DNA of 57,698 nt from a virus: positions 1-57,698 of IMG/VR virus record IMGVR_UViG_3300018063_000014, one strand, 5' to 3'. Shown piece after piece: positions 1 to 53,232 of this stretch. The position numbers and the translations under genes are program-made. Position 1 is the first letter of the stretch. The number at the start of each line of letters is the position of its first letter. Below the pieces are notes generated by a model. The model searched no databases. It had not been told where the DNA came from and saw only the letters and a program-made list of their open reading frames with translations.

Positions 1-570
1 AATTTCGCCGTTAGGCTCACCGCTGTTATAAAAAACATAAGCCCCTTGATGCCCTGCTCCTTTAAACGGCCCGGTCCACCATCCTGTACCGATTGCTACT
101 TGCTGGAAACCGCCGCTACCGTTCTGGAAACAAGTTGACCAAGTTCCGCCAATAGGCAAACAGGAAATAAGCCATGTACCACCGAGGGCGTATCGGCGAA
201 CGTATAGAGTCCCGGTGACTGGATTGACCGTATTATGATCATCGCCATGACTCGGGGTAGTGAACCCGCTTTGAAGCTCTGTCCAAGTATTAGTCGATTC
301 GGTATAGGTGACGTGTGTTGGCCCGGCTGGAACCTGATTATGGTCTTGCCCTGTAAAGTGAAAAATGCCCCGGTTATAATCCCAAGCTCCAGACATAGAA
401 AATGGAAGACGGTTCCCGGTTGATGGTCCAACGGCGAGTACGGGGCCAATGTTGGTTGTCGTAAACGATGCCCATGTACCGACACTCATCACTGTTGCAG
501 TCGTCTCAAGAACAGAGGCTCCCAAAACTACTGAAGGACATAAAAGCAGCAAGATCAACCAAGCAATCAT
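1..570 (-). CDS. Secreted protein of the fibre region, C-terminus beyond the window
   Basis: An open frame of 190 codons runs from an ATG at 570 off the left edge without a stop. The start overlaps the stop of the next gene in an ATGA junction. Residues 1-18 form a clear Sec signal peptide (MIAWLILLLLCPSVVLGA, a hydrophobic core ending in small residues). The mature part is rich in Gly, Thr, Trp and Asn with repeated short motifs such as GTW, as in beta-rich extracellular or fibre domains. I do not recognise the family. It sits beside other signal-peptide proteins of the tail region, so a surface or exported role is inferred. Confidence 0.75.
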   Translation of the reverse strand, partial: MIAWLILLLLCPSVVLGASVLETTATVMSVGTWASFTTTNIGPVLAVGPSTGNRLPFSMSGAWDYNRGIFHFTGQDHNQVPAGPTHVTYTESTNTWTELQSGFTTPSHGDDHNTVNPVTGTLYVRRYALGGTWLISCLPIGGTWSTCFQNGSGGFQQVAIGTGWWTGPFKGAGHQGAYVFYNSGEPNGEI

Positions 571-884
571 CGAAACTCATCCCCTACCGGAAGCCCTAGC
601 GCCCGCTGGCATATTGGGCTGGTGTAGCCCGAACATGTCCCGGAATTGCAAGCCCTGATACGATAACAATACTGCTGTCCGGCGGTAAGATTGGTGTCCG
701 TGTAACTCGTCACGTTCGCCGCAGTCTGGACTATTTCAGCAAAGCTACCACCAGGATCGGCTCCGCGCTCGATACGAAAATCGGTCTCATCGCTGGAATT
801 GTCAGCCCAAGTCAAATGCAAGACGGCGGCGGAGCAGATGCCGGGAATAAGAAGAAATCCAAGTATGAGAAAGAATCGTTTCAT
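567..884 (-). CDS. Secreted fibronectin type III-like protein
   Basis: 105 aa. The ATG at 884 is chosen because it overlaps the upstream stop (ATGA) and opens a Sec signal peptide (MKRFFLILGFLLIPGICSAA). The mature protein has the usual FnIII landmarks: LTWADNSSDE near the N-terminus, a SYTDTNL turn and YCYRIRACN in the late strands. Four or more Cys suggest disulphides outside the cytoplasm. It resembles the protein at 53454-53873, which has the same LTWxDNS and YCY features, so the two look like paralogues. A carbohydrate-binding or adhesion role is possible but unproven. Confidence 0.75.
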   Translation of the reverse strand: MKRFFLILGFLLIPGICSAAVLHLTWADNSSDETDFRIERGADPGGSFAEIVQTAANVTSYTDTNLTAGQQYCYRIRACNSGTCSGYTSPICQRALGLPVGDEFR

Positions 885-1063
885 TGCGCAGGCTCGCATG
901 AAACAAACTCGCCCCGCTCGAAAATCTCGTTGTGCCAGATTACTCCGCATTGAAGGATAGCCGACTCGCGCGATACCGCTGGCACTAGGTAGCGCGTTTC
1001 TTTGCCCTTCCACCTGATGGTTATGGTCCAGTTGGCCCTTGGGGGAGTTTCGATCTCGCTCAT
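881..1063 (-). CDS. Small hypothetical protein
   Basis: 60 aa, ATG start overlapping the upstream stop (ATGA) and its own stop overlapping the next start, so it is locked in a coupled chain. There is no signal peptide. The sequence is hydrophilic with a central TITIRWKGKETRYLV strand-like stretch. The family is not recognised; reality as a gene rests on the two coupled junctions. Confidence 0.6.
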   Translation of the reverse strand: MSEIETPPRANWTITIRWKGKETRYLVPAVSRESAILQCGVIWHNEIFERGEFVSCEPAQ

Positions 1064-1326
1064 CTCAACACCGTCCTGACCGCAGTATGAAACTGCATCG
1101 ATCGCTCGTACTCGTCCAGCTTTCTCTCAAACGGCTCGCAGACTCCCGCGTCTACGCAGCGCGCGCAGATATGCCTCATACACATGCGGCAAAAGCCGCC
1201 CAAATTCTCAGCATCGGCGCGCTTCTCGATGTGCATGATAAACTGACAATGCGCGCAGGTCAGCGTATCATATTCTTTCGTCGGCGCTTCGGGATCGACG
1301 ATGAAAGCGTAACCGTCAATGCGCAT
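1060..1326 (-). CDS. Small zinc-ribbon protein
   Basis: 88 aa. I prefer the ATG at 1326 because GAGG lies six bases upstream; a GTG at 1332 is the alternative. Three Cys pairs are visible (CAHC, CRMC, CARC) plus nearby His, consistent with one or two zinc-binding knuckles. The C-terminal third is charged and helical. It is one of many small CxxC proteins in this genome. Function unknown; nucleic-acid or protein binding would be typical. Confidence 0.65.
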   Translation of the reverse strand: MRIDGYAFIVDPEAPTKEYDTLTCAHCQFIMHIEKRADAENLGGFCRMCMRHICARCVDAGVCEPFERKLDEYERSMQFHTAVRTVLR

Positions 1327-1335
1327 CGACACCCT

Positions 1336-1785
1336 CTACATCTCGTCAACGTGGACCGTTGAAGTAACAATAACCGCCGTTGATGTCGGGGTTCTGATCG
1401 CCACGCCGTTGCTCGCCGTCGCCGGAGTAACGATTTCCCCGCCTGGCGCCGCTACCCAGCGGTACGAGGCACGTTGATTTAGGGGGATCGTCGCCAGCAT
1501 TGCCGCTGCTGTCAGAGTAGGATCGACGGTATGATTTTCCGCCGCGTCCAATTCGGTCGCCGCATCGGCAGGATCAAGCGGTTGCGGAGTAACGCCGGTT
1601 GCCGTTCCCGCCGTGGTGCAGCGTTGAATTTGCCACAGAAAGACGTTATCGGCGGGCGTTGCCTCGGAGCCGAACAGCCAGTCATAGAGCTTGACCCGTC
1701 TCGGACGAGTCGCATCGGCACTAAAATTTCCCACAGACAATGTGGTTGATGCCGTCCGTTGCATCCTGATCGCGTTCTTAGCCAT
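1336..1785 (-). CDS. Probable virion-associated protein of unknown function
   Basis: 149 aa, ATG with AAGGAGAACTAAG in front. No signal peptide. The sequence is Ala/Thr-rich with predicted beta structure (KLYDWLFGSEATPADN, QPLDPADAATELDAAENH). From memory, similar proteins occur in tail-module regions of other uncultured phages with no assigned role. Its position among fibre genes suggests a structural or accessory virion protein. Confidence 0.65.
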   Translation of the reverse strand: MAKNAIRMQRTASTTLSVGNFSADATRPRRVKLYDWLFGSEATPADNVFLWQIQRCTTAGTATGVTPQPLDPADAATELDAAENHTVDPTLTAAAMLATIPLNQRASYRWVAAPGGEIVTPATASNGVAIRTPTSTAVIVTSTVHVDEM

Positions 1786-1786
1786 C

Positions 1787-2020
1787 TTAGTTCTCCTTTA
1801 TTGGATTGGGACGATTGAGCTTTTGTGCAACATGAGTAGCCGCCCCAAACTTAGGCCACTCACGACGCAACTTTGGTAAACATCGGGTATGATAAGGCGG
1901 GGTCAAAGATTCCTCTCCATACGCCTCGCCGCACCCATCACACGTTTTGCTCGGCACTTGGACCGCACCATAAAGGTACAGATCGCAACGCCGCTTGATT
2001 GCAAAAACAATTCGTCTCAT
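1787..2020 (-). CDS. Small Cys-rich protein
   Basis: 77 aa with a strong ribosome site (AAAGGGAGGATTT then ATG). A CDGCGE knuckle followed by HTRC makes a four-ligand zinc site likely at residues 27-47. The ends are basic. It lies 17 bases after the beta-helix gene upstream. Function unknown. Confidence 0.6.
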   Translation of the reverse strand: MRRIVFAIKRRCDLYLYGAVQVPSKTCDGCGEAYGEESLTPPYHTRCLPKLRREWPKFGAATHVAQKLNRPNPIKEN

Positions 2021-2037
2021 AAATCCTCCCTTTTTAG

Positions 2038-4581
2038 TTATTTCCCCGCTCCGGTCAGCAACACGCTCGCACCGTCGGGACGAGTTACTACAGGCGGGGT
2101 TGTTCCAGCATTTAACTCAAACATTACGCCCTTGCCGGTGTCGTCGGTCCCGCCAACCACGTCGAAGGTTTTCGATGTAACGGTAACGGGACTCGCTCCA
2201 TTTATTGCATGATTCCAAACCAGGCCAACAGTGCCAGCGCCCGCATCGTGATCCGGCTCTCCAATTTCAATCCAGGTCAACGAGTCGCCTGTCAGCGTAG
2301 TAACTGAAGTCCAAGCACGGCGCTTCATCCCAACTACAAGGACAACGTTGTTCGCTGCAAGGGACAATCCGGTAATTGGTCCAATGTCGTTGCCAGTAAT
2401 ATTGAGGCTTGGCGTTGTAACCTCTGATATAGGCGTTGTCCCGCTTACACCGCGATAGGCTGCAAGCTGCGTGACGATCTCACCGTTGTTAGAGCCTATG
2501 GTCCAGGTCGGTGCTACGCTACATGACGGATAGAAGCAATACCATAACCCGAGCATCCGGCCAGTATCCTGAGTCGGGGTGAGTATCGCTGTCCAGCCCG
2601 CACTGATTGAAGCCGTGAAATTGGTATCACGACCCGCCAGCCCGGCAATAATAATGTCGTCCGTTGCGAGCCCTGCTGGCAATCCGGGCGCAGGGCTAGA
2701 ATTGTCTACAATGTTTCCCGCCGTTCCCGCCGCGACAAAAGTGATCGCGCCACCAGTGCCAACTTGAACAGAGCAAGTTTGGTCCGTGATGGACAACATT
2801 TTTTGTTTAAAACTGAATGCACTAGGCGCATTGTCCGTCAATGAGCCTGTTGCTGAATTGTAGGAGTCGAGACAAGCGTTTCCAGCGGCAAAAGCATTAG
2901 TCAGGTTGATTGTAAGAATGCCGCCGCCTTCTGTTACCGACGTTACAGGATTATCGACGCCAGCCTTTTTGACTGACCAACCCGTAGTAAAATTGCTAGC
3001 GAGTAGGCCAGGGTAGCGATTGTTCTCGGGAGTGCAAATCAGTTGAAGTGCGGAAACGATTCCGACGACGCAGTTATTTGCTGGAACTATCGACGCCTCG
3101 TAAGCCCCAATCGCACAAGCCGGAGCGTTGCAGCCTACACCGGAAACCGCTGTGCCGCTATTTTCAAACGTAGAAACCGTGTGAGTTAAGTCGCCCGTTG
3201 ATGGAGAAGTCAAAAGCGGATCGGTGTTTAGGGTGCTACCAAAAAGCCCCGAGACCGATTGGCAAGACGCAAGAGTCCGGTTAGTAGTATCACCCCAACG
3301 ACAAACATCAGTCGAACCCTGCTCTAAAAGATTGTTGTGGCTAATGACATGAGCGCCTTGAGTAATGAAAGTCGCGGTCCCCTCAAACGGGACAATGCCA
3401 CCGCTCTCAGTGTGACAAATATTGTTCTGAAAAACAGCGCGAGGTCCGCGAAAAGCATGAAAACATCGCTCTTTTACTCGAACAATGGTGTTGTTAAAAA
3501 ACTTTGGATCGTTGGGATCGCCGGTGCTTGGGGAGCCTAATCGAATGCCCTTTCGCCCAACGTCATAGACGAGATTATTTCTTACAGTCCAATTATGACA
3601 CTGACTCTCAATAAATATTCCGGCTGAATCTGAGTTGACTGTTGCAAAAGTTGGATAATCAATATTGTGAACACGGTTGTTCTCTATGATGCCGTTCTCG
3701 GCTCCGGTGTCACAATATAAACCAACAAATAGATCGTCATCTGTGCCAACAAGACTATCGTTGTCGCACGCTACGCCGTTGATACCGGAACCGTTTACTT
3801 CGTTATTGCGGATAATCGTTCCGCTGCTGTCCTGCGCATCTTTGATAACCTGTATGCCGCGTCTTCCGTCGCTGAAAAGCCCACACCGCATAGAGGAAAT
3901 GGTGTTATTTTCGATCAGTACGTTTAACCCTTCGGAAATCCGGATTATACTATGGGAATTGTTGGTAAAAGCGTTGCTAGAGATTGTCGTTGTAATCGTT
4001 TTGGTTGCCGTTCCGCCGCTTGTGACCCCATTAGTCCGAATTACATTGGTTCCACTAGTATTACTTCCGGTTCCCCCCCAATCGTCGAAACTGTTTCCGG
4101 TGATGGTAATGCCGATCATATTGGCCGTCACCGCCGAGAGTAGAATCGCGGCATCGCTCGTCTGTACTCCGGTTCCATCAAATAGAAGATTGCTTATCGT
4201 GACATGCGAGGCGTCGGTTATTTCAATCGAAGCCGTGCTGTTGGACGAAGCCCCGGAGTTGCGCAGTATTGGAGTCTCGCCGGTGAAGGGCCTAATGGTG
4301 ATGGGACTGCCAACCGATCCGCTTACCGTCAGATTTGAGACTGCGGTGTAAGTGCCGGCGCGGATGATGATTTCATCGTCGGCCCCAAGTGTGGCGTCGT
4401 CAAAAGCACCTTGGATGGTCTGATAAGCATCGCCATCGCTGCCGGTGCAGTTTCGGTTGGTGATAGAGTAATTCCCGGTTGTGCAGTTTGCTCCAAGGGT
4501 TCCGTCAACATGGATATCCTCGGCCCTAACTTGAAAGGCGAGCAAGAGAACAAAAAGAAGTGAGAGTAAGAGGCGGTTCAT
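2038..4581 (-). CDS. Secreted right-handed beta-helix protein, candidate tailspike or exported depolymerase
   Basis: 847 aa, ATG overlapping the upstream stop (ATGA). It begins with a Sec signal peptide (MNRLLLSLLFVLLLAFQVRA, cut before EDIHVDG). Residues about 50-450 are typical of parallel beta-helix or pectate-lyase-like folds: YQTIQGAF at the start, then repeated xIxIxxNxxxN turns (ISNLLFDG, IENNTIS, IIRNNEV, IENNRVHN). After that come Thr/Ser-rich beta domains. Several Cys pairs suit an oxidising compartment. Tailspikes of this fold bind or cut surface polysaccharide, but they normally lack a signal peptide, which makes this one unusual. No catalytic residues can be assigned by eye. Confidence 0.75.
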   Translation of the reverse strand: MNRLLLSLLFVLLLAFQVRAEDIHVDGTLGANCTTGNYSITNRNCTGSDGDAYQTIQGAFDDATLGADDEIIIRAGTYTAVSNLTVSGSVGSPITIRPFTGETPILRNSGASSNSTASIEITDASHVTISNLLFDGTGVQTSDAAILLSAVTANMIGITITGNSFDDWGGTGSNTSGTNVIRTNGVTSGGTATKTITTTISSNAFTNNSHSIIRISEGLNVLIENNTISSMRCGLFSDGRRGIQVIKDAQDSSGTIIRNNEVNGSGINGVACDNDSLVGTDDDLFVGLYCDTGAENGIIENNRVHNIDYPTFATVNSDSAGIFIESQCHNWTVRNNLVYDVGRKGIRLGSPSTGDPNDPKFFNNTIVRVKERCFHAFRGPRAVFQNNICHTESGGIVPFEGTATFITQGAHVISHNNLLEQGSTDVCRWGDTTNRTLASCQSVSGLFGSTLNTDPLLTSPSTGDLTHTVSTFENSGTAVSGVGCNAPACAIGAYEASIVPANNCVVGIVSALQLICTPENNRYPGLLASNFTTGWSVKKAGVDNPVTSVTEGGGILTINLTNAFAAGNACLDSYNSATGSLTDNAPSAFSFKQKMLSITDQTCSVQVGTGGAITFVAAGTAGNIVDNSSPAPGLPAGLATDDIIIAGLAGRDTNFTASISAGWTAILTPTQDTGRMLGLWYCFYPSCSVAPTWTIGSNNGEIVTQLAAYRGVSGTTPISEVTTPSLNITGNDIGPITGLSLAANNVVLVVGMKRRAWTSVTTLTGDSLTWIEIGEPDHDAGAGTVGLVWNHAINGASPVTVTSKTFDVVGGTDDTGKGVMFELNAGTTPPVVTRPDGASVLLTGAGK

Positions 4582-5129
4582 GGCTCTTGCCTATAAATAA
4601 ACTCACCCGTTACAGCTATGGCTTGAGCAAGATTCATGCAAAATGAATCGCCGAGCGAGGTTTTCATCCCGGCAGGAAGAATATGGCCGACTTGAGCAAT
4701 CAGCGGCACGGCCTCCGATATGTTGGCGTCGGTCCCCGCGCAGGTTGCGCCCGATGATTTGACAAACTTCACGCTTACCGTGCCCGCCGCGAGTATGTAG
4801 CCGCCGCAAGACGTGATCTTTTTACCGGCTACTCCGGCAACAATAAGCTGGTCCGCAGCCGTAGCGCCGGTGATGCCAACGCTTGTCGTATATTGCGGAT
4901 CGCAGAATGATTTGACGGCTAGAGCGCAAGCGCCGTTGGGGCAGTCGATCCAATTGGCGCCGTCGTAGACGTACCATTTCTTGTCGAACGTGGTGAAGCC
5001 GGTATCTTGGGTTGATGCAGTCTGGCCAGTTAGATCGCTGAAGAATGTAACCGTGAAGTGGCCCGTCATTGCATAGACCGGCTGGGCGAGCAAGAGAAGC
5101 GCAAGAACTAGAGATTTAATGATCCGCAT
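4578..5129 (-). CDS. Secreted protein of unknown function
   Basis: 183 aa. The frame is open further upstream, but the ATG at 5129 has GAGG upstream and opens a Sec signal peptide (MRIIKSLVLALLLLAQPVYA). The mature part starts MTGHFTVTFFSD and contains six Cys (DCPNGAC, SFCDPQ, TSCGGY, ATCAG, FCMN). It is coupled by ATGA to the beta-helix gene and probably co-expressed with it. Family not recognised. Confidence 0.7.
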   Translation of the reverse strand: MRIIKSLVLALLLLAQPVYAMTGHFTVTFFSDLTGQTASTQDTGFTTFDKKWYVYDGANWIDCPNGACALAVKSFCDPQYTTSVGITGATAADQLIVAGVAGKKITSCGGYILAAGTVSVKFVKSSGATCAGTDANISEAVPLIAQVGHILPAGMKTSLGDSFCMNLAQAIAVTGEFIYRQEP

Positions 5130-5137
5130 TTTGTACC

Positions 5138-5497
5138 TCACAAACTCAATCTTTCGATAACAGGCTGAGATTGCCATTGAAACAGGCGATTCCCGCCGGC
5201 AAGGGCCACGGTCGCCTTTAACCTCACGTAGCGAGAACAAATGGGGTAGAGCGGCGTTGCCCTGGAAGCCACGGCTATATCGACGACCGTGCCGCCAGAG
5301 GTCAATAACCCCGTTTCCCCTGCGGTAAAAGCTACATTCGGCGAACATTCGATATTGATCGTCTCCGTTAGTGTTGCCGGGGTAATAATCGAAGCCATCA
5401 CGGCCCTCGGGTAGCCCAATTCGGACAGATCCAAGATTTCCGAAGTGGTTGCTCCGTTAAGTATCGTCAGAACGGACAGTTTAGGGTTGAGTGCCAT
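5138..5497 (-). CDS. Hypothetical virion protein
   Basis: 119 aa, ATG preceded by GAGATAGGAATATT. Predicted all-beta, no signal peptide, one central Cys pair (ECSPN, PICSR). A 50-base gap before it holds a dispersed CGTAAAAC motif. Ends RYVRLKATVALAG then a WQSQP strand, which resembles small decoration or fibre-associated proteins, but no family is assigned. Confidence 0.6.
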   Translation of the reverse strand: MALNPKLSVLTILNGATTSEILDLSELGYPRAVMASIITPATLTETINIECSPNVAFTAGETGLLTSGGTVVDIAVASRATPLYPICSRYVRLKATVALAGGNRLFQWQSQPVIERLSL

Positions 5498-5514
5498 AAT
5501 ATTCCTATCTCATT

Positions 5515-5547
5515 AAAACGTAAAGCGTAAAACCACTGGACAAAAAA
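5515..5547. repeat. Dispersed CGTAAAAC-type intergenic motif, copy 1
   Basis: Two tandem CGTAAA units (5519-5532) followed by CACTGGACAAAAAA. The last 21 bases match a copy at 56476-56496 at 18 positions and one at 28396-28416 at 16. It lies just upstream of a minus-strand gene start. Role unknown; a promoter or operator component is the simplest idea. Confidence 0.5.
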
Positions 5548-8500
5548 TTACGGGCCTATGGCTTCGGTCGGTAACGGTTGCACTTCCACCGGACGCTGCT
5601 CCGTTGGTTGCCCCTCCGGGAGCCCGGTTTGTGGCTGCTCCGCGCCGAATATCACCCTTTCTATGCCCGGAATGATACCCGGATTAGGCTGTCCGCTCGC
5701 TTCCAGGGCATCGCGCTCGGCTTCTTTGCGTTGAATCTCTGGGTTGACTTTGCGCATCTCATCTTTGGCCGTCTCACGAAACTCGATATAGAGTTGATTT
5801 AGTTCTTTTTGTTTTTCCGGCCTCGGCAGCTTATTGAACTCCGGCTCTGCATCGAGTGCGGCGATAGCTTCGTTCCATGTTCGACTCGTTCCATACTGCC
5901 GTGCATGGTTCTTCGCCAGAAACTCCCAGTCGTAAGCCTCGTCGCCGTTTAGATTCACTCGGGGCTTGCCCTTCATGATTTCAACGGGACTATCCGGGTC
6001 GCTCGTGCCGCCGTAGTGCTTCCAATTATTATGAAGCGTCAATTCGTGCTTCGTCATGAACTCGGCTACCGGGTCTTCGCTTGGCTGATTCTGGCGCATC
6101 GGCGGAGTGAAAAAGCCAATGCCGCGCGCGAGCCAATCAGGAGCGCCAAGATTCTCTTTGACCCATTCGGTTCCAAGGATCGGCGGGATAAAGTGCGGCT
6201 TCCCTGAATAGTTGAGCCGTGGGCGACCGCCAGCGCCGAACGGTGTCCCTGCGAAGAAATATGTTTTCAAATCTTCTAGTTCGCCGTATGAGCGCGTGTC
6301 GGGTGCTTTCGGGTCCATCATTTCACCGACGCGGCGACCGATTGGCGAGCCTCCGATTGATAGATTCTTCAACGGCAGCATCGCGACCTTTGCGATCGCA
6401 TGGAGGTTGTCCTGAAAATCTCCGATGTTTTTGACATCGCTCACCGCGTTGGTCAGCCCTTCCATGAGGCGCAGCCAATAATTGTTTTCTACGAAGCGGT
6501 ACATACTGAACATCAGCGTTGATGTTGCGCCCTCCAATTTGTCCATGTCCATCTCGCCCGAGACATGCGCAAGGTCGGATATGAAACCAACAATGCTCCC
6601 GACCGGCTCAAACCATCGGATCGGCACGCCATGAATCGCGTAAGGCGTATTCCCCGCCTTTCTCCATGCGTCCTGTGCCTTCGGATCGGTGGGACCGCCG
6701 CCCGTGATGTAGCCCATCTTCGCTGCTTCATATATCTGGCTGGCCATCATCCACGAGAGGGTCATGCGCGAACGCGCCGCCGCTTCTTTTGCGCCGCCCT
6801 CGGCCAAGGCTTCAACGAATTCCTTGCTGATCATGTTAAAGCCCGGCGTCCAATCGCGCGCCATCTTCATAGCGTTGATCGGGAACTTGATGACGGGCAA
6901 ATAATAATCCAACGGACCTTGCCGTATTCCTCGGGCAATCAACTCACCGGCCCTTGATAGCGGGCTTCGAAAGAGAATCTTGTCTGATTCCTGTTCCACG
7001 TCGGCAACGAGCCGCTTATAGTTTTCAGGGTTGTTCATGGCCGAATCGACGTAATCGGCGGTCCATTTCCTTTTTTGCGTGCCTGCTGGCATCGTAAACG
7101 CGCCAGCCCTGACCGCATCCTGCATCTCATCCCACTTGGACAGCACCTCTACGGTCGCTCTGCCTTTGGCGAGCCCGTTATTGACGACGCCAGCCATGAA
7201 CTCGTCTTCGTAGCCAAGCCAGCCCAACGGACCATATTTGACCATCGAGCCGGTTGCCGTGCCCTCGATCCCTGCTTTCTCAAGCGACTTCCCGGCATTT
7301 TCGACTGCGTTTCGATGAATCTCAAAGAGCTTATGCCGCGCTTCGAACATGCCCGACCAATTCGCCGCAGCTTCGCGCATCGTCACACTAGAGCCTGGTA
7401 TCAGCGACGACGCGGTTTTATTGACTCCATTGAGCAGGATCGAGCTGGTATTTCCGACCATGTTGGCAACGTGCGTGCCCGGATTCGCAAAAAGCAAGGA
7501 TTTGTAAAAGAGCCTGAGCGTGCTCGCTTCAGCCGTGGACTTCCCGGCCTCTTCGAGAAGCCTGGCGCGGGAATTCTTGCTAAGATTCGCGACTTTCTGA
7601 ATCGTGTAGGCCATGGCCTCGTTCGAACCGTTCAGGAACTTCTCTGCGCCCAGCGCGCGCGTGATCGTGTCGAACGTCAGGGATTCGCGTACGAGGTCTT
7701 GCATGGTCGTCAGATATTCCAATCCACGTCCGGCTTGCCCGCGACCGCTTAGAAACGCCGGGTTGGTCAATTCCATCGCAGCCAAGTGGGCCTTATAGGA
7801 TTCCACCAAATCGGGACGCGCACCGGAGCGGATATCGCCTAAGTGCTGGGCGGCATCGTCAACGACTGAATTGAAAGCGTCGGCAATCTTTTCATGGACC
7901 CGCCCGATCGCCTCCAGTTCGGTCGCGGAGATCGGCGCATCGGGACCACGCGCGATTATCTCGTCAAACGAAAGAGGCTTGGCCGACGCAGCGGCTTTGG
8001 TCTCGGCATGGGAGACGCCCTTATATTTAAACGGCTCGGTGCTACTTCGAATCGTCTTCTCGGACCGTTCGGTGTAGTGCTTAATAAGCTGCGTCACTGT
8101 CATCGCTTCCAGGTCTTGCGGGGTTGCCATCTGTTCTATTGGCATCGCGGCTTGCGTTGGACCCGTGAGCGGCGCCGGTTCGGCGGTTTTGAAAGCCTGT
8201 TTCCCGCCAGTGACTCCGGGTGCTAAAACATCAGGATTGATGATTCTAATATCGTCTATATTGAGTGGAGCCGTTTTCTTCGCCACCTCTACGGCATCGA
8301 ACCCCTGCGCTCTCGCGTATTCGACAATCCGAAACTCCGGTAATTTCGCTATGTTTGGAGGGATTTGGTCATATTCGAGCATCTTGGTTGACGGCAACAG
8401 ATTAAAGTTCTCTGGCGTTCCGAAGGTTTCAGCATAATCCCGAGACGTAGTGACGGACACGCCCTTATCGGTAACTTTAGCCGGATCGAAGGGTTGACCG

Positions 8501-9273
8501 GCGCGGTCGCCACGGAATACCTGAGTGCCCTTAATGCCTTCCGCCTCTGCCGCTGCGCTCGCTACGCCTTGACCCTTGCGCGTCACATTCTCCGCACTGG
8601 CTTTCGCCAACTTCGTTGCCGTCGCGGCCTCTAGGGCCTGCGATTGCCTGATCGCGTGCCCCACCGGATCTTTGATAAATGCCAACTCGTCGGCGAGTTT
8701 AGCACCGGCCTTTATCCCGGCCTTGGCAGCAACCTCCGCTGCTTTGAATGGAGCCTTGAGAAGCGTGCTGATGCCGAAGAAATTCGTTGGTATCCACATC
8801 GCCCAATTCGCCAACCGCGCAAAACCGGGAGATTCGGGAAATATCTCCAACGCCCACCTTTCGACGACATCACCTGGGATATTAAGAGCATCGAGCGCCT
8901 TCAGTGAGCCCATAAGCCCGTGTAGAACCGCTTCGGATTTCTTAGCGCCACCTTCTGCGTTCGCGGCATCCCAAGACGCCTTGAATTCGTTCATGACGTT
9001 TTGCGCGTAAAATTTTGCCTCGCCAACGATCGGTCCCGTCAAGCCTCCGCCCGATTTTCCTACCTGCGAAGTCTTCGCTTGCGATTCCGCCTGCGCGCCC
9101 AACATCGCCGCTTCCCTCTCGGCGTCTCCGTAGAGAGACAGAACCTCGATTTTCGTAGCGAGCGTAATTTCGCCGGTGCGATATCGCCGGTCAATCTCAC
9201 TCACTGGAACCTGCTTCATCTTTTCCAGCACTCTCTGCAAATCTGCCGGTTTAAATCTGGGAACGTAGGGCAT
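5548..9273 (-). CDS. Very large internal virion (ejection) protein with an ADP-ribosyltransferase-like segment
   Basis: 1241 aa, ATG overlapping the upstream TAA. The N-terminal 250 residues are helical and Ala-rich. Residues about 249-350 show an ART-like pattern: FRGDRAG near 253, GVSVTTSRDYAETFG at 271-285, GFDAVEV near 324 and DIRIINPDVL near 341, resembling polyvalent-type ADP-ribosyltransferase domains. The rest (NPGTHVANMVGN near 600, long amphipathic helices, Pro-rich tail) resembles large phage proteins thought to be packaged and injected. Position after the tail genes and beside another helical protein suits a T7 gp15/gp16-like role. Enzyme activity is an inference only. Confidence 0.7.
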   Translation of the reverse strand: MPYVPRFKPADLQRVLEKMKQVPVSEIDRRYRTGEITLATKIEVLSLYGDAEREAAMLGAQAESQAKTSQVGKSGGGLTGPIVGEAKFYAQNVMNEFKASWDAANAEGGAKKSEAVLHGLMGSLKALDALNIPGDVVERWALEIFPESPGFARLANWAMWIPTNFFGISTLLKAPFKAAEVAAKAGIKAGAKLADELAFIKDPVGHAIRQSQALEAATATKLAKASAENVTRKGQGVASAAAEAEGIKGTQVFRGDRAGQPFDPAKVTDKGVSVTTSRDYAETFGTPENFNLLPSTKMLEYDQIPPNIAKLPEFRIVEYARAQGFDAVEVAKKTAPLNIDDIRIINPDVLAPGVTGGKQAFKTAEPAPLTGPTQAAMPIEQMATPQDLEAMTVTQLIKHYTERSEKTIRSSTEPFKYKGVSHAETKAAASAKPLSFDEIIARGPDAPISATELEAIGRVHEKIADAFNSVVDDAAQHLGDIRSGARPDLVESYKAHLAAMELTNPAFLSGRGQAGRGLEYLTTMQDLVRESLTFDTITRALGAEKFLNGSNEAMAYTIQKVANLSKNSRARLLEEAGKSTAEASTLRLFYKSLLFANPGTHVANMVGNTSSILLNGVNKTASSLIPGSSVTMREAAANWSGMFEARHKLFEIHRNAVENAGKSLEKAGIEGTATGSMVKYGPLGWLGYEDEFMAGVVNNGLAKGRATVEVLSKWDEMQDAVRAGAFTMPAGTQKRKWTADYVDSAMNNPENYKRLVADVEQESDKILFRSPLSRAGELIARGIRQGPLDYYLPVIKFPINAMKMARDWTPGFNMISKEFVEALAEGGAKEAAARSRMTLSWMMASQIYEAAKMGYITGGGPTDPKAQDAWRKAGNTPYAIHGVPIRWFEPVGSIVGFISDLAHVSGEMDMDKLEGATSTLMFSMYRFVENNYWLRLMEGLTNAVSDVKNIGDFQDNLHAIAKVAMLPLKNLSIGGSPIGRRVGEMMDPKAPDTRSYGELEDLKTYFFAGTPFGAGGRPRLNYSGKPHFIPPILGTEWVKENLGAPDWLARGIGFFTPPMRQNQPSEDPVAEFMTKHELTLHNNWKHYGGTSDPDSPVEIMKGKPRVNLNGDEAYDWEFLAKNHARQYGTSRTWNEAIAALDAEPEFNKLPRPEKQKELNQLYIEFRETAKDEMRKVNPEIQRKEAERDALEASGQPNPGIIPGIERVIFGAEQPQTGLPEGQPTEQRPVEVQPLPTEAIGP

Positions 9274-10628
9274 TAGCGTTTAATTCCGCGCAAATCTTCC
9301 ACCGGCACTTGACGTTGCTGATTTTCAACTCGTTGCTTTTCGAACTTGGTCCGCAACCCGGTCACAAACGCTCGTTGGCGCTCCGGCGACATATCGGACA
9401 CTTCGCGCAAACTCCTAGCTCTATCGGCCTCAAGCTGCTTACTACTCGCGCGCGGGAAAAACTCCCGATAGAGATCCTGGACTTCTTGGCGCGCGTCGAA
9501 CGTTGACTGCCGCTCTTTGATATCCGAGGTCGTAGTCAGCCGGTCCCGCAAGAATCGGAGTTCTCGAACCGCAGCTCGATAGTCTGGGGTCCGCACGTCT
9601 ACTTGTCCACCCTTCGACGCCGCAGTAAGTTTCCGCTCAGCCTCGGCAACATCGCTAAGCGTGTACCGTGCGCCCCTGTAAACGGGCGACATCGCATCTT
9701 CGACGACGGCCGTCTCGTAGGGATTCGCGGCCTTGAGCCCGATCTGCATTTTGATGAGACCGTTGACCTTCTCATCGTTCCAGCCGTAATACCGCGCGGT
9801 GTCTTTCAACTCGGCGATATCCAGCCGGCGCTCCGAAGCCTGAAGTTCGTAGCTGCGTTCCGCCGCCTCCGAAATGACTCTCATTTCTTGGGCGTCTTTC
9901 CGTGCGCGCGCATCGCCGACGCGGATCGAAATTTCTAGCGCCCGATTGACGGCGGTCGAATCACGCCCTTTGTACGCCCCTTCTTGCTGCTTACGGATGA
10001 ACTCAGCCGGTTGAGTCGCCGCTTCGAGATTCATGCTCTCCGCTTCGACCTTGCGGTTGAAATCCACTAACTCATCCGCCGCCTTTTCCCTCGTGAGATA
10101 ACGATTGCGCGCCATGCCTGCCACCAAATCGCCAAACATCCGGCCTGCGCCCCGCTGATTCTCATCGTCCGCTCCGATCGCGGATCGAAGTAATTGATCT
10201 TTGGCGACGGTGTAGTCTCCTGCGGCTTTGTCTTTAATTTTGAGATTGTATTGATGCCCGATATTGCCATTGATCTTGATCAAATCGTTGGAAAGCCCAG
10301 CCTCTACGAGTCGGCGCGCTCTCGGATTGCTCGCCGATTCTAAGCGCGTTTGGTACAGCTCGCGGGCTTTCGTAATTGTCGTTTCTTTGAACTCCGCCGG
10401 GTCGGAGATCGTGTCTACGGAGTTCTGCAAGTGCGCGTTTAACTCCGCCTGGCCATCGAGTACGGAGCGCGTAGCTTCGGCCTTGTCGGCTCCGTCCTGT
10501 AGGTGCTCAAACTTCTCGCCAAGATGCTCCAACCCCTTGCCGATATAGCTTGCGCCCGGCGTCGGCACGCGGAGCTGCCCGGAATCGAGTCTTGGGACTT
10601 GTGGCTGTATGCGAAGCAATTCGGGCAT
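9273..10628 (-). CDS. Helical internal virion protein candidate
   Basis: 451 aa. I choose the ATG at 10628 (MPELLRIQPQ), two bases after the previous stop with AAAGGG upstream, over a TTG at 10652. It is almost wholly alpha-helical and highly charged with many Ala, Arg, Glu and Gln. Its C-terminal residues overlap the start of the 1241-aa protein. Size, composition and place match internal core proteins that cross the envelope with the DNA in T7-like phages, but no specific homologue is named. Confidence 0.65.
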   Translation of the reverse strand: MPELLRIQPQVPRLDSGQLRVPTPGASYIGKGLEHLGEKFEHLQDGADKAEATRSVLDGQAELNAHLQNSVDTISDPAEFKETTITKARELYQTRLESASNPRARRLVEAGLSNDLIKINGNIGHQYNLKIKDKAAGDYTVAKDQLLRSAIGADDENQRGAGRMFGDLVAGMARNRYLTREKAADELVDFNRKVEAESMNLEAATQPAEFIRKQQEGAYKGRDSTAVNRALEISIRVGDARARKDAQEMRVISEAAERSYELQASERRLDIAELKDTARYYGWNDEKVNGLIKMQIGLKAANPYETAVVEDAMSPVYRGARYTLSDVAEAERKLTAASKGGQVDVRTPDYRAAVRELRFLRDRLTTTSDIKERQSTFDARQEVQDLYREFFPRASSKQLEADRARSLREVSDMSPERQRAFVTGLRTKFEKQRVENQQRQVPVEDLRGIKR

Positions 10629-10630
10629 TA

Positions 10631-11065
10631 CTAAGGCCCTTTCATAATCCAAGCCGATTTATAGAACGCCGGTTCATGATTTGCAGAATTATGCGCACCA
10701 TGAGAATCAACCGTAATGACGCCGTGAGTGTGCCCTGTCACGGCATTGACTAGACCGATAAGTAGATTAAAAACACCAGTTGTATGATCCCCTGGACCTA
10801 CAACGACATGATCCGGGTGAGTCGTATGTGTATGAGTCACCCCGCCTCCCGTTGCGCCGGGATTTTCAGCGGCCCCTACGTTTTTGATAAATTTATCTCT
10901 CAAGTCTGGCGTTCCGTTCGTGCCGTCGCATAAAAACCAACGACTCGGAATCTGATTAAGGGGTTTTCCCCAAGCTACTATTGTTCCTTCGGGTACAGCC
11001 GACATCGATAATAAATCTAACTTTCGGGACAGTTGCTGCGCATTATAAAATCTGGGTCTACTCAC
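10631..11065 (-). CDS. Phage tail-collar-domain protein
   Basis: 144 aa, GTG start sharing bases with the upstream stop (GTGA). The N-terminal part has the collar signature: VPEGTIVAWGKP, then WFLCDGTNGTPDLRDKFI. The His-rich stretches (THTHTTHPDH, GHTHG) resemble the metal-binding HxH motifs along trimeric fibre tips. Such domains sit at the receptor end of fibres. No signal peptide, unlike the two genes upstream of it. Confidence 0.8.
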   Translation of the reverse strand: MSRPRFYNAQQLSRKLDLLSMSAVPEGTIVAWGKPLNQIPSRWFLCDGTNGTPDLRDKFIKNVGAAENPGATGGGVTHTHTTHPDHVVVGPGDHTTGVFNLLIGLVNAVTGHTHGVITVDSHGAHNSANHEPAFYKSAWIMKGP

Positions 11066-11316
11066 TTATGGTGCCCGTCTTTCTTTTCGGTCTTCACTTT
11101 CTCTTGTTCGGCTTCTACCTTTGCCTGCAAAACATCCCGCTCTTTTTTCATTTCGATGTATTCGATTTCCACAAGCCGCATTTTAAGATTCAGATTTTCA
11201 AGGCGGAGCTTGTCCACTTCGCTTTGAGCGAAAGCGGGACTCATCAAAAAGCCAATCAAGGCCAAGAGCGACAAAGTGACTATAGTAAAGCAAATATTTT
11301 CAACTACAGATTTCAT
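11062..11316 (-). CDS. Secreted or membrane-anchored coiled-coil protein
   Basis: 84 aa. ATG at 11316 overlaps the fibre stop (TGATG). Residues 1-31 form a hydrophobic export or anchor segment ending in SPAFAQ, a good Sec cleavage site. The remainder is one long charged coiled coil (heptads from VDKLRLENLNLKMRL to the end). Placement between fibre and collar genes suggests a partner of either. A spanin-like or chaperone role is conceivable but not shown. Confidence 0.65.
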   Translation of the reverse strand: MKSVVENICFTIVTLSLLALIGFLMSPAFAQSEVDKLRLENLNLKMRLVEIEYIEMKKERDVLQAKVEAEQEKVKTEKKDGHHK

Positions 11317-12896
11317 CAGCAACTCCCGCCCGTCAAAAGCCCATGAGAAAAAATGAGCGTGCAATCGGAGGCCCCGCCTGCGGCTCGCACGGTTTTAGTC
11401 GCATTGATCGTCGCTGCCGCGTTAATGCTTAACGTGCCCCTGAATTGAAGCACGCTCCCTGTGTTCCCGATGTTCACCTGGTCGCTCCCTGTGTCCGCGA
11501 TGACTATATCCGCGCTGTCACCGCTATTACGGCTCTTGATCGTTACCCCGGTTGCCAATCTGATATCACCCGTCGCCGCTGGGATGACTCCGATAGAAAG
11601 CCCAGAACCTGGCGTTGTTAGGGCAAGGCGGAGCGCATTGCTTTCAATTTGCCCGCTGGTGGCCCCGACGCGAATATAGGAACTATTGGCATCGTTCCAC
11701 CGGATTTTACCTGTCGTTGCCCCAGCTTTAAGAATCAGTGCCGCATCGCTGATCGTCGTCGGAAAAGTAGCGAAATCCAAGCCCGCTGCCCAATCGCCGC
11801 CGCCTAAGCTGTACCCCACGGCAAGCCCCGCTGTTCCTGTCTGAGTTGCTGAAAAGGAGTACGCCTGAAGGGCTGGCGTTGTGGCGATAGTGGTTACTTG
11901 CCCCAAGATCGCGTTGATATTGGCATCGGAAGTCCCTACCGCCGCCGCGTGAGCATGGATACCGCGTAGGATGTGGCTGAACGTTCCCGCCGTTGCCGTG
12001 GTATCGACGTTGACCAGGATGCCCCGTACCCGATGATCACCATCGCCGTTATCGCTGTCCGTGAGACGAACATAGATTCCAGTCAGATTGCGCTGCGCCG
12101 CGCCTGAGGTTGTCGTTGCTAGCGTACCTTCGATCAGCATCCCATCGACGGCCTTGGTATCGGTAATCGACGTGACGGCACCTAAGTTGATGTATTGGCT
12201 CGCGCTGTGAGCGTTGGAGAGTAAATCATAGCTCGGCGTCGGCGTGGTGATCGTCAGTCTATTATTCGCGAACTTGAAAGCCTCGGAGCCCACAAGCGGA
12301 GTAGTTGTGCCAGCGCCAAAAGCCACTTGCCCGCTCGACAATCCCGTGCCGACAATGTTTACTAGAGTGACATTTTCCAACCCTGTGAGGTCGGACTTCC
12401 AGCGAACAAAGTTACCCGATACCGGATCGGGGATCGTCAAAGCCGAATAGGTAGATTTCTCTCCAAGCAAAAGAGTCCGCTGAGCGCGCTCGGCGAGCAT
12501 TTGCCCGACCATCGTCTGCTTGTCGAAATCGCGCATGACGGTGAGCGCGTTATAGGCAGAATTGGCCGTGTAGTTGGTAAGCTGAGAGACCGGCTGATTG
12601 CGCATTAGCGTCACAGGCAAACCGTTCGCGGGTGCGGTGACAAAAGTAACGGTTCCGCCGTTGGATGCGCCTACCCCTGACACCGAGTAATGAGTCGATA
12701 GAGTTTGAACAACGCCGTTGACAAGAACCTTGATGTCGGCTGACGAGAGAATTTTGAAATTGTAGGTGTAGGCCGTCGCGCTGCCATTGCCGACGTAGCG
12801 ATCTTCGCTGCCATCGAAAACCACCGTGGCGGGTGCCAAAGTAGGAAAAAGCGGGATGCAAAAACTTAGGAACAACGCCAAGAATAGATTTCTCAT
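11316..12896 (-). CDS. Tail fibre with T7 gp17-like N-terminal domain and a signal peptide
   Basis: 526 aa from the ATG at 12896 (alternative start at 12908). The first 25 residues are a Sec signal peptide (MRNLFLALFLSFCIPLFPTL, then APA). Next comes a region that matches the virion-attachment domain of T7-type fibres: TAYTYNFKILSSADIKVLVNG, a THYSVSG strand, PVTLMRNQPVSQLTNYT, then DFDKQTM...AERAQRTLLL. The C-terminal 350 residues are Gly/Thr/Ala-rich beta repeats typical of a shaft. An export signal ahead of a capsid-attachment domain is hard to reconcile with cytoplasmic assembly. Confidence 0.8.
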   Translation of the reverse strand: MRNLFLALFLSFCIPLFPTLAPATVVFDGSEDRYVGNGSATAYTYNFKILSSADIKVLVNGVVQTLSTHYSVSGVGASNGGTVTFVTAPANGLPVTLMRNQPVSQLTNYTANSAYNALTVMRDFDKQTMVGQMLAERAQRTLLLGEKSTYSALTIPDPVSGNFVRWKSDLTGLENVTLVNIVGTGLSSGQVAFGAGTTTPLVGSEAFKFANNRLTITTPTPSYDLLSNAHSASQYINLGAVTSITDTKAVDGMLIEGTLATTTSGAAQRNLTGIYVRLTDSDNGDGDHRVRGILVNVDTTATAGTFSHILRGIHAHAAAVGTSDANINAILGQVTTIATTPALQAYSFSATQTGTAGLAVGYSLGGGDWAAGLDFATFPTTISDAALILKAGATTGKIRWNDANSSYIRVGATSGQIESNALRLALTTPGSGLSIGVIPAATGDIRLATGVTIKSRNSGDSADIVIADTGSDQVNIGNTGSVLQFRGTLSINAAATINATKTVRAAGGASDCTLIFSHGLLTGGSC

Positions 12897-12898
12897 GG

Positions 12899-13423
12899 TT
12901 ACGTCCAACTCGATTCGAGATCCTTCATGCTGGGGAATTTATATGTCCCGGTGCCCCTTGTTTTCTTGTACCAGTCGCCCATCACCGACGAGCCGATTTG
13001 CGCCGCGCCACCAATCGCCATACCCGGAATCGCTCGCCGCTGAAAATGCGCGCCTAATCTCGCTTGGTACGCACGCGATTTTCCAGAATACGTCTCTAGT
13101 TCTTCGTTCATGCCCTGCTCAAACGCATTCGCTAGTTCGATTTCCAGGGGACTCCCGGAAAACGGATCGACACCGGCCCCAGCGGCTACGGCTCTGTTGC
13201 GCCCGATAACTTGTCGATATCGCCTTTGGCTCGCTTCGCGCGTCAGCCGAGTCTCTTCATTGATAAGAGCGGCTTGCTCTTCGCCCAGTTTCGCCTGCGC
13301 GTCGGCTTGCTGGATCGCACTACCAACCTGCGCGGCTGTACCAACAGCCTGTAGCGTTGTGGCGCCATACTCACTGGCCCATTCCCCCAAGCTGGTAAGA
13401 AACGACGCGCCGTAGTCACCCAT
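12899..13423 (-). CDS. Internal virion protein, T7 gp14-like
   Basis: 174 aa, ATG start. Helical, with Gly/Ala-rich ends and a middle stretch full of Gln, Glu and Arg (QADAQAKLGEEQAALINEE). VDPFSGSPLEIELANAFEQG is the kind of motif seen in small internal core proteins of T7-like podoviruses, which form part of the ejection channel. It follows the tail tube genes and a gp13-like gene, the expected order. Overlaps the previous gene by eight bases. Confidence 0.7.
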   Translation of the reverse strand: MGDYGASFLTSLGEWASEYGATTLQAVGTAAQVGSAIQQADAQAKLGEEQAALINEETRLTREASQRRYRQVIGRNRAVAAGAGVDPFSGSPLEIELANAFEQGMNEELETYSGKSRAYQARLGAHFQRRAIPGMAIGGAAQIGSSVMGDWYKKTRGTGTYKFPSMKDLESSWT

Positions 13424-13802
13424 TCTTTGCCCACCCGTAACGAGCTATCGGTAGTCGTTCAAATCCCAACATTTCCAGCCACCGGCAGAACTTGGGATCG
13501 TCGCTCGTCTCGGCTTGTACTATTTCAGCCTTGATCAAATCCCTGATTATCGGGTATCGCCATTTGATTTCGCGTGTCAGTTTGCGCATCAAAAGCTTGC
13601 TTTGCCTAACCTCGGGCATCATCACAACCCATGCAAAGAACTCACGCCCCGTTACGCGGCCTAAGCCAGCGGCGGCAACGGGTTCGTCATTTAGCAAGTA
13701 GACGTAGCCCGGACCCGACAGCCGCCGTGAGTTCAACAGGCTGTCCATCTGCCCCATGCGCTCAAGTTGGTAAACGCTCAGCGGCGCGACCACGGTGTTC
13801 AA
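13416..13802 (-). CDS. GNAT-fold protein, T7 gp13-like
   Basis: 128 aa. The start is probably the TTG at 13802, which shares bases with the upstream TGA and has GGAG upstream; a GTG at 13793 is possible. GYVYLLNDEPVAAAGLGRV followed by FFAWVVM and a C-terminal FCRWLEMLGFERL matches the beta-strand and late-helix pattern of GNAT acetyltransferase folds. T7-like phages carry such a protein between tail tube and internal virion genes. The acetyl-CoA loop is weak, so catalysis is doubtful. Confidence 0.65.
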   Translation of the reverse strand: MNTVVAPLSVYQLERMGQMDSLLNSRRLSGPGYVYLLNDEPVAAAGLGRVTGREFFAWVVMMPEVRQSKLLMRKLTREIKWRYPIIRDLIKAEIVQAETSDDPKFCRWLEMLGFERLPIARYGWAKNG

Positions 13803-16324
13803 CTTGCCGCGTCTCCAAACGCTACTTGACCGGAAATCCCCAAAATGGTCATAGGGTAGGGTCGATCCTGTAGAATCGTGAATGCGCCGTCATATGGGTC
13901 ATCTGTTTCAAGGTTCTCCATCTTGAGAAGGCCCGTATACATTCGTGAGCCACCTTCCCGCTTCTTTAGAGGTTTGCCGTCAATTTTGCCGCCGATGGTA
14001 TTTTTTACCCTGACATGAACATACGGCCATGAGCGTTTGAGCCCTTCCGTTACTTCGCCAGCGACAACGGGCCGGAGTGGTGTAAGGGTCGAATCGTAGT
14101 GCAAGCCGACCTCATAGATCGTATCGGCGTCGGGTACTTCCCCGGCGTCGGCATCGAGCGTTATGACGCCACCGGCTGACACAGTTTTTTGTGCTATCGC
14201 GGTATCACCGATAATGACATCAACGACCGTGTTGGGTAGATGCGTGATGCCGGTAATCGTGGTCGCGCCCGCAAGAAGCGTTCCCACCTTGGCGCAATCG
14301 GTTTGCAGACCGGCCCATTTCACATCGGAGAGTACGCCACTGGCGTTTTTGCTCTGTGTTACTCTAGTCTGTAAAGCGGGAGAATCGTCTTCGAAGTATT
14401 CCCAAAACCGTTTTACAACCGCGTTGATCGTCCGCTTCACCACGACATAAACCGTAAGGCGTTTCCCGTCCTCGTGCGGCACAACAGCCACGCTTTCAAT
14501 CTCATCGCCTGCTCTAGTTTTCGTTCGTGACCACGATTTTACTTCTTCGCGCGGCTTGAAGGTCAAGTTGGCGAGTTGCCCATTCTCCAGGGGAGTAAAG
14601 ACGAGCGAGAAGGGCTTTTTCGCATAGGCGGGTCGATGCACCGCGAATCCCATGTCTCCGATATGCCGGGAGAACAAAGTTAAGTCGGTTGAGACGAACG
14701 CGCTTGCGTCTGGTGAGTCGTTCAGCGAATAGGCCATCTGCACAACGTCTTGACCGAATCTCTGAAGCAGCAAAATCGCGTTGTCCACGACAAGCGGTTG
14801 AACGTGCGCGGACCCTACTTGATCAATGGGAGCGACGAACGGGGTCTCGCTGCCACCGATAGGCTTATCGACTCCCTGCCCGCGCGCGGCATGCTCTTTT
14901 TTCGCATCGCCGATATAAAGAGAAATGAGTGAGACTAGCCATTGAATCGGGTTCTGCTGCCCGCCTTGAATCGTGTACTCGTAGGCGTTGTCCGCGATAG
15001 AGCCAACAGCAAAATTGTATATGTTGTCGATATCTGATCCGTTGAAAGTGGTGGGCTGACTCGGGGGGCCGCCAAACACAAGTCTACCGCCATGAATCGT
15101 CAATGTACGAGGTCTTCCCCTCGTTGCGCTCCAAGACGATTCCTCCAATCGCCACGATCCCTCGGGCGCGGCAGCCGGATTAGCGTCGGGCGATTCATCG
15201 AGCACGCTCAAAATGGTTCCCGTCATGCTGGTTGCACTGTTCCAGGCGGTAATTTTTATTAGGCCGCCATAGACTTTGATAAATTTGCTTACATAGGCAG
15301 CTCTGAACGCATTCACCCCGGCCACTATGGCAACCTGGGTTCCTACGGGCTCTTTTCTGTCCACGTCTAGGGTGGTCCGAGGCGACAAATGCAGCAGCCA
15401 TGCCCCGGCGGCGAATCCGGCGGTCCAATCATACGCAACCGGCGCGGCCTGATCGACGCTGAAAGCGGCATCGATGGTGAAAGTATCGGCTCCGCCTACT
15501 GCGGTTATCTGGCGAATTTCTGTCGCCTGAGCCCCGGCTGTGAGAATCACGAATTGATTGACGCTGCGCCCGTGGCCGGTGCTCGTGACCGCCGTGCCTA
15601 CGCTCGTCAAGGTCTTGCCGCTCGCCGTAATGGTCGCCGCGAAGGCGTCTAAAACATTGACCGTAACTTGTCGCGCCGAATCTAGCGCCGTAATTATTCC
15701 CCGGCCAGTTCCCGCGATGAGCTGCCGACCCACATCGCCGGCAAGAAATTGATCCGTACCGACTCTGAATTTAATAGCTGCCCCAGTGTTCGCGTTCGGT
15801 GCCCCTATCACCCCAAGGCTTTCATCCGCCTCGAAAGACGGCGGAGGATCTGCGTTGAAATTGCCGATTGTCCAATTATTGTCCGCTACGCGCGCGAGTT
15901 TTTGAATATCTAGCGCCGAGTTTAGACTTGTCATGAAAAGAAAATCCGATGCCTGTTCGTAGTGGATATCCCGCAAGTCTGCGGTGGCGTAGGGCTGGAC
16001 GAGTTCATAAGGAACGCCCGGCGAACTTTCGATATAGGCCCGATTCTTGATAAATCGAATCTTCCCGTCGCCGAACAAAAGCACGAAGGCGTCATCGACT
16101 GAACGTTCAAACGGGATCATCATCGTAAATTCGTTCGAGTCTTGAACCTCACCGCCAAACATCAATCCTGGTCTCCTGGTGCCACCGCCTTCGGGCAGAC
16201 CCCACCAGTTTTCAAATACGAGAATTCCGTTGGCCCTTTTTGCAACGTCGGGTCGAGCCTCGACATAATCGCTCACCTCGCCTTGCGAAAAGTTGGTCTG
16301 ATAGTTAGGAGCCTTTTTCGACAC
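13799..16324 (-). CDS. Tail tubular protein B (T7 gp12-like nozzle)
   Basis: 841 aa, GTG start directly after the upstream TAA. The N-terminus is diagnostic: NFSQGEVSDYVEARPDVAKRANG, then NWWGLPEGGGTRRPGL and the ERSVDDAFVLLFGDGKIRF strands. These proteins form the hexameric nozzle at the tip of short tails and bind the fibres. Length is close to the family norm. The gene is adjacent to the gp11-like gene, as in other podoviruses. Confidence 0.88.
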   Translation of the reverse strand: MSKKAPNYQTNFSQGEVSDYVEARPDVAKRANGILVFENWWGLPEGGGTRRPGLMFGGEVQDSNEFTMMIPFERSVDDAFVLLFGDGKIRFIKNRAYIESSPGVPYELVQPYATADLRDIHYEQASDFLFMTSLNSALDIQKLARVADNNWTIGNFNADPPPSFEADESLGVIGAPNANTGAAIKFRVGTDQFLAGDVGRQLIAGTGRGIITALDSARQVTVNVLDAFAATITASGKTLTSVGTAVTSTGHGRSVNQFVILTAGAQATEIRQITAVGGADTFTIDAAFSVDQAAPVAYDWTAGFAAGAWLLHLSPRTTLDVDRKEPVGTQVAIVAGVNAFRAAYVSKFIKVYGGLIKITAWNSATSMTGTILSVLDESPDANPAAAPEGSWRLEESSWSATRGRPRTLTIHGGRLVFGGPPSQPTTFNGSDIDNIYNFAVGSIADNAYEYTIQGGQQNPIQWLVSLISLYIGDAKKEHAARGQGVDKPIGGSETPFVAPIDQVGSAHVQPLVVDNAILLLQRFGQDVVQMAYSLNDSPDASAFVSTDLTLFSRHIGDMGFAVHRPAYAKKPFSLVFTPLENGQLANLTFKPREEVKSWSRTKTRAGDEIESVAVVPHEDGKRLTVYVVVKRTINAVVKRFWEYFEDDSPALQTRVTQSKNASGVLSDVKWAGLQTDCAKVGTLLAGATTITGITHLPNTVVDVIIGDTAIAQKTVSAGGVITLDADAGEVPDADTIYEVGLHYDSTLTPLRPVVAGEVTEGLKRSWPYVHVRVKNTIGGKIDGKPLKKREGGSRMYTGLLKMENLETDDPYDGAFTILQDRPYPMTILGISGQVAFGDAAS

Positions 16325-51635: not shown

Positions 51636-51685
51636 TGGGATCTCCCTGAGTATTCTTTTGTGGACGCCCATTGTCCACGCCGTTG

Positions 51686-51700
51686 ACGTAAAACGTAAAC
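51686..51700. repeat. Dispersed CGTAAAAC-type motif, copy 7
   Basis: ACGTAAAACGTAAAC, in the gap between the 77-aa gene stop and the start of the pentapeptide gene. Confidence 0.45.
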
Positions 51701-53000: not shown

Positions 53001-53075
53001 TGGTGGAGTAGCCGAGATTCCAACTCGGAACGCTCGGGTGCAGACCGAGCATGATAGCAGTTTCACCACTACCCC
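53001..53075 (-). tRNA. tRNA-Ala (TGC)-like, non-canonical
   Basis: Acceptor GGGGTAG/CTACTCC with a G3-U70 pair (the alanine identity element), discriminator A and encoded CCA. Anticodon arm CTCGG-TCTGCAC-CCGAG gives TGC. But position 33 is C instead of U, the T-loop is TTGGAAT rather than TTCGAAT and the D-loop lacks GG. Reading Cys (GCA) needs a shifted loop. It may be decayed or specialised. Confidence 0.6.
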
Positions 53076-53076
53076 A

Positions 53077-53152: not shown

Positions 53153-53154
53153 AA

Positions 53155-53231: not shown

Positions 53232-53232
53232 A

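Follow-up and report, generated by a model that had tools for sequence, protein, structure and literature searches.

To our knowledge, the virions of tailed phages are taken to be built wholly in the reducing cytoplasm. Podovirus-type heads and tails assemble in that compartment, and a signal peptide is usually taken as evidence against a virion role. The fibre gp17 of phage T7 (PF03906, Phage_T7_tail) begins directly at its N-terminal docking domain, and the nearest solved docking-domain relative of the fibre considered here, the Dpo31 tailspike of Cobetia phage Carin1 (PDB 28LX, 8CK1; phmmer E 1.7e-10), begins MTVPTNDN... without a signal peptide. Here we describe, in the 57,698-nt IMG/VR record IMGVR_UViG_3300018063_000014 from an uncultured virus in an environmental sample (positions 1-57,698, the whole stretch of DNA analyzed, hereafter the window), a gp17-like tail fibre encoded at 11316-12896 that, unlike T7 gp17, carries a predicted cleavable-type signal peptide ahead of its docking domain, together with six other proteins bearing predicted Sec signal peptides.

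The coat proteins of filamentous phages are Sec-exported virion proteins with signal peptides; filamentous virions, however, assemble in the membrane and are then extruded, whereas the heads and tails of the window phage are of the cytoplasmic podovirus type. Lom of phage lambda, an exported host-surface protein that enters the host membrane (PMC12309495), is similar in having a signal peptide and a late or fibre-region gene, but the window fibre, unlike Lom, has kept its domain for docking on the tail. Exported 'LLSNNF' proteins of other podophages (L031:10033-11301 and L036:9845-10600) likewise have a signal peptide and lie near tail or fibre genes, and differ from the window fibre in having no docking domain. 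These LLSNNF proteins also have acidic tails and a distant match in Pelagibacter phage HTVC023P. No report of signal peptides on tailed-phage fibres was found in the open-access literature.

The window fibre resembles the T7 gp17 type in its N-terminal docking domain, as judged by profile, by fold and by the T7-like tail-module context. Its signal peptide is followed by the docking domain (approximately residues 24-140) and by a distal part that has no detectable relatives. The first-pass annotation, made from the sequence alone, had placed a gp17-like attachment domain straight after the signal peptide, and the domain matched phrog_1640 (E 2.4e-28, from residue 32). The Pfam Phage_T7_tail score of 21.0 bits fell under the cut-off of 25.2, and the orthologue in G001, a population of the window's own lineage, lay just over it (25.5 bits). 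With an AlphaFold2 (AF2) model of the mature docking domain (predicted local distance difference test, pLDDT, 79), the best Foldseek matches were N-domains of fibres from the solved portal-tail structures of Carin1 (Dpo31, rank 1), LME-1, P-SCSP1u and T7, at moderate TM-scores of 0.4-0.6.

A search of IMG/VR for close relatives of the fibre protein gave no match, and relatives of its docking domain indicated where an ordinary fibre starts. The fibres of six annotated phages begin at the docking domain, as do 78 of its 80 nearest IMG/VR relatives, so that export as a universal property of this fibre family was rejected; the two relatives with a signal peptide both represent G001. The window fibre has 23 surplus residues before the docking domain, whose start is reached only after the predicted cleavage. 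Cleavage between APA and T would leave an N-terminus matching that of ordinary fibres after methionine removal, with 10 residues before the YxG motif in the mature window and G001 fibres and a median of 11, methionine included, in 38 ordinary fibres. The G001 cut was placed by comparison, the scorer alone favouring an earlier one. The window and G001 fibres have different signal-peptide sequences, share 48% identity in the docking domain and cannot be aligned in their distal parts; both retain 18 of the 21 near-invariant domain residues (methionine apart).

A second, unrelated case was reached by a search with a protein of L099, another lineage member. MW202554, a podophage from Manatee Spring with a circular genome, has a P22-type stabilisation protein in its annotation and is unrelated to the window lineage. 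Its structural block encodes a fibre with a tail-collar domain (Pfam Collar, 82.8 bits); this fibre begins with MIVLVLLFLLLSISSADA followed by GTITRPT. Three more proteins of the block probably have signal peptides too, with a weak score for 25674. In alignment with a signal-less relative of the fibre domain, GTITRPT after ADA stands opposite GIITKPT after the initial M, which gives a second fibre family in which the signal peptide ends at the ordinary protein's start. In each of two fibre families that are not related, the predicted signal peptide stops just where the canonical N-terminus begins.

All seven proteins that the first-pass annotation had credited with signal peptides were found at their coordinates, each on the minus strand, and the predicted signal peptides themselves held up. 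As controls for a Sec scorer built from known Gram-negative signal peptides, 4,254 internal windows were drawn from nine proteins of this genome that are not exported; all seven N-termini outscored each of them. Each shows a hydrophobic core and then small residues; the Sec/SPI (signal peptidase I) features, namely a basic n-region, a hydrophobic core and small residues at -3/-1, are present but weaker for 1-570, a truncated protein whose n-region has no basic residue. When many start codons per open reading frame (ORF) were scanned genome-wide, only 567, 2038, 4578, 11062 and 53454 scored above 10. The called starts are supported by tight gene packing, as four start codons (1-570, 567, 2038 and 11062) overlap the preceding stop and those of 4578 and 11316 follow it by 8 and 2 nt. 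Six of the seven genes are located at the fibre position of the structural block and downstream of it, 53454-53873 being the outlier.

Signal peptides on structural-operon proteins are borne by four phages of the window's lineage, whose members were located with tail tubular protein B as the query (identity 55-61%). G001 has six such proteins; L099 (tail tubular protein B 55% identical) has up to four between its capsid and tail genes, with a weak score for 6203; and in L106 (capsid 74%) there is an orthologue of one of the L099 proteins. At the other podophage loci of the survey, the score threshold was reached by 9 of 376 ORFs. The first-pass annotation had treated homologues starting downstream of the hydrophobic stretch as evidence that would count against export. 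Outside the lineage they do start there, yet the stretch is missing altogether, whereas lineage members keep it with diverged sequence, and that comparison is thus not simply applicable. As a separate observation, the major capsid proteins of three relatives (L096:1498-2508, L099:14-1021 and L106:5069-6079) carry at the N-terminus a hydrophobic extension of 36 residues (MNxxxxLSRxIxVW...), conserved among them and absent from the capsid protein of the window.

The cysteine content of the predicted mature chains was also distinctive. Mature signal-peptide proteins contain 87 cysteines in 6,032 residues (1.44%), against 50 in 10,877 (0.46%) for structural controls, a 3.1-fold difference (Fisher 4e-11); the cysteine richness reported earlier for several window proteins was recovered for 2038, 4578 and 567. 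Amongst complete, non-redundant proteins with cysteine, the number was even in 13 of 14 signal-peptide proteins and in 6 of 20 controls (Fisher 4e-4; binomial 0.002), and 50 signal-less fibres comprised 11 with even and 29 with odd numbers, the remainder having none. This parity hinges on removal of the signal peptide, with 567 and 11316 odd when it is counted and even when it is not; the mature 11316 fibre has both of its cysteines close to the C-terminus. Additionally, two homologue families each include a signal-peptide member with cysteines that the other lacks: over 564 aligned residues MW202554 27039-29579 (with a signal peptide) has nine and MW202647 11195-13264 (without) has one, and the C-terminal domain of L099 4343 has two at positions where its Caulobacter phage homologues have none. 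Exported bacterial proteins are known to favour even cysteine numbers (PMC7678975).

Altogether, the sequence-level support consists of the predicted signal-peptide architecture, its conservation despite sequence turnover, its exact position in the two fibre families and the cysteine signature, and export of the signal-peptide proteins appears well supported. The earlier suggestion of an oxidising compartment gains from the same observations (lineage-conserved signal peptides, raised and even cysteine numbers, and cysteines missing from signal-less homologues). We lean, with some reserve, towards the interpretation that this lineage exports fibre-, spike- and adhesin-type proteins via Sec for oxidative folding and that the fibre still docks on the tail, probably at lysis. 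The broader proposition, that in at least two unrelated groups of tailed phages the fibres are Sec-exported, disulfide-bonded and joined to finished particles at cell lysis by a split-compartment route for which the open-access literature gave no tailed-phage precedent, seems to us evenly balanced. In such a scheme, these proteins would be made with cleavable Sec signal peptides and exported in an unfolded state, most likely through Sec because the signals have no clear twin-arginine motif. Trimerisation and disulfide formation would take place in the periplasm, where signal peptidase would give the gp17-like fibre the N-terminus of an ordinary one. Lysis proteins would then break the inner membrane, so that cytoplasmic particles would meet the periplasmic fibre pool and the fibre would dock on the tail nozzle; since the cytoplasm is where such heads and tails form, lysis is when both pools would meet. 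We think that the fibre ends up on the tail, since the docking domain, which is conserved, would come to be exposed with an ordinary N-terminus. We infer that actual export and cleavage, disulfides, and late docking, at or after lysis, would all take part.

Several points weigh against this interpretation. The Sec scorer is home-made, and in the genome-wide scan 1-570 (5.6) and 11316 (5.9) overlap noise, so that the case for the 11316 fibre rests on comparative evidence. Cysteine enrichment is weak for 11316 alone (two cysteines; p 0.08 for both signal-peptide fibres pooled), the signal-peptide protein L003:2241 has an odd number and the MW202554 collar fibre has three. The presence of the gp17-like fibre on particles is predicted from its sequence, and the meeting of a periplasmic fibre trimer with the nozzle at lysis is proposed from established podovirus biology. 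Profiles of tail tubular protein B and capsid found no prophages in 84,980 bacterial and archaeal genomes.

The first-pass annotation had offered three outcomes of export, namely changes to the host surface, release of fibres to the medium and virion maturation outside the cytoplasm. For the gp17-like protein, late joining to the virion is the best fit, given that its docking domain has remained conserved and starts right at the predicted cut. For the proteins that lack such a domain, a role at the host surface or as enzymes, away from the virion, is about as likely. Extended to all of the exported proteins, as agents of surface change, superinfection exclusion or polysaccharide cutting, or as decoys or adhesins, with their effects on or beyond the producing cell and never as virion parts, this explanation, the main rival, is in our view rather unlikely, though it deserves serious attention. 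For most of them (2038, 567, 4578, 53454 and, in relatives, the LamG and beta-helix proteins) no docking domain was recognised, the integrase makes the phage look temperate so that lysogenic conversion is possible, and lambda offers the precedent of the exported Lom gene between spike and fibre genes (PMC12309495). Conversely, the conservation of the fibre docking domain while the distal part is replaced is the usual pattern of virion fibres, the MW202554 protein has a tail-collar domain, and the genes lie within the structural operon.

That the hydrophobic N-termini are retained membrane anchors or assembly helices appears improbable; 11062 does resemble a single-span membrane protein and 1-570 has its atypical n-region, but the small residues at -3/-1, the cut at the canonical N-terminus, the raised and even cysteine numbers after cleavage, and the absence of such a segment from the start of solved fibre N-domains all argue against retention. 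No start with a Shine-Dalgarno sequence was found just downstream of the signal peptide in the 11316 or G001 fibre gene, so that a signal-less internal start was judged unlikely as the real fibre start. The existence of two fibre forms, one exported from the upstream start and one cytoplasmic from an internal start (GTG codon 25 in the window gene, ATG codon 26 in G001, both near the domain start), with only the latter in virions, is very improbable, given those missing Shine-Dalgarno sequences and the GAGG at proper spacing before the G001 signal-peptide start.

The features discussed here are collected in the following table.

Table 1. Features of the window and of its relative G001, with strand where assigned and details of the predictions.
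Feature	Position	Strand	Details
Tail-fibre protein, 526 aa	11316-12896	-	23-aa signal peptide (MRNLFLALFLSFCIPLFPTLAPA, cut before T), docking domain, distal part
Predicted fibre signal peptide	12828-12896	-	Cut 23 picked by the scorer unguided
Right-handed beta-helix protein, 847 aa	2038-4581	-	Signal peptide (MNRLLLSLLFVLLLAFQVRA, cut before E), score 15.3; mature part 18 Cys
183-aa protein	4578-5129	-	Signal peptide (MRIIKSLVLALLLLAQPVYA, cut before M), score 15.8; mature part 6 Cys
FN3-like protein, 105 aa	567-884	-	Signal peptide score 11.4; mature part 4 Cys
FN3-like protein, 139 aa	53454-53873	-	Signal peptide score 10.6; mature part 2 Cys; near lysozyme gene and tRNA cluster
Protein cut by contig end	1-570	-	Probable signal peptide (MIAWLILLLLCPSVVLG, cut before A); hydrophobic core, score 5.6-7.0
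84-aa protein	11062-11316	-	Begins with signal peptide or membrane segment; charged coiled-coil tail; score 13.7-15.2
Tail tubular protein A (nozzle ring)	16325-16909	-	Expected docking partner of the fibre; phrog_394 E 4.8e-39; without signal peptide
Tail tubular protein B	13799-16324	-	phrog_376 E 5.4e-111; without signal peptide
Major capsid protein	18785-19687		T7-type virion gene
Portal	23677-25404		T7-type virion gene
Internal virion-type proteins	12899-13423 and 5548-9273
Integrase	35239-36447
Lysozyme	54054-54506
G001 signal-peptide proteins	L003:20279; L003:2241 and L006:13632; L006:15830; L003:5460		Tailspike-like; beta-helix (two); LamG; small; plus the G001 fibre

Amongst the other six proteins, the 2038-4581 product had been described as a tailspike-like beta-helix; the beta-helix stands (Pfam Beta_helix 40.9 bits, E 2.1e-10, over the cut-off of 25.9) and nothing establishes a tailspike identity. 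No docking domain was detected in it by Pfam or PHROG profiles and no relatives were found among cultured phages or IMG/VR, and its AF2 prediction, made without relatives, reached a pLDDT of 33. The 4578-5129 protein matched no Pfam or PHROG family. The 567-884 product matched fn3 (E 2.3e-5; 24.9 bits against a cut-off of 25) and is a paralogue of the 53454 product (31% identity, E 5e-10), the gene of which adjoins four clustered tRNA genes (Ala, Pro, Thr and His) at 53001-53307. A circular continuation of 1-570 by joining the window ends was not convincing, with a stop 16 codons beyond the join. The 11062-11316 gene, whose start overlaps the fibre stop, sits in the position of T7 gene 17.5. 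Its product, without cysteine in the mature part, matched nothing in Pfam or PHROG with a useful E-value, holin and i-spanin families included; by position and topology it may be a holin or an i-spanin, and a role as an exported helper of assembly is another candidate.

By its T7-type virion genes, the window phage is predicted to be a tailed phage of the podovirus kind, and its host is probably Gram-negative. Two neighbouring lipoprotein-like starts (LVGGC and SSLGC) at 56572-57290, near the lysozyme gene, may mark lysis or spanin-type genes of a phage with such a host. The terminase large-subunit gene (25819-28353) seems to hold an intein or homing insert, as the G001 protein aligns to residues 6-300 and 634-844 only and a LAGLIDADG_3 domain lies at 511-564. 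A pentapeptide-repeat protein is encoded at 50829-51797.

If the Sec-export interpretation is true, receptor-binding parts would be exported and tailed phages would have a second assembly compartment. This would account for disulfide-rich fibres, and attachment of the fibre at lysis would be directly testable. For laboratory work, such fibres would be best expressed in the periplasm. The recognition of fibre genes in metagenomes would change as well, because a signal peptide normally counts against a virion role.

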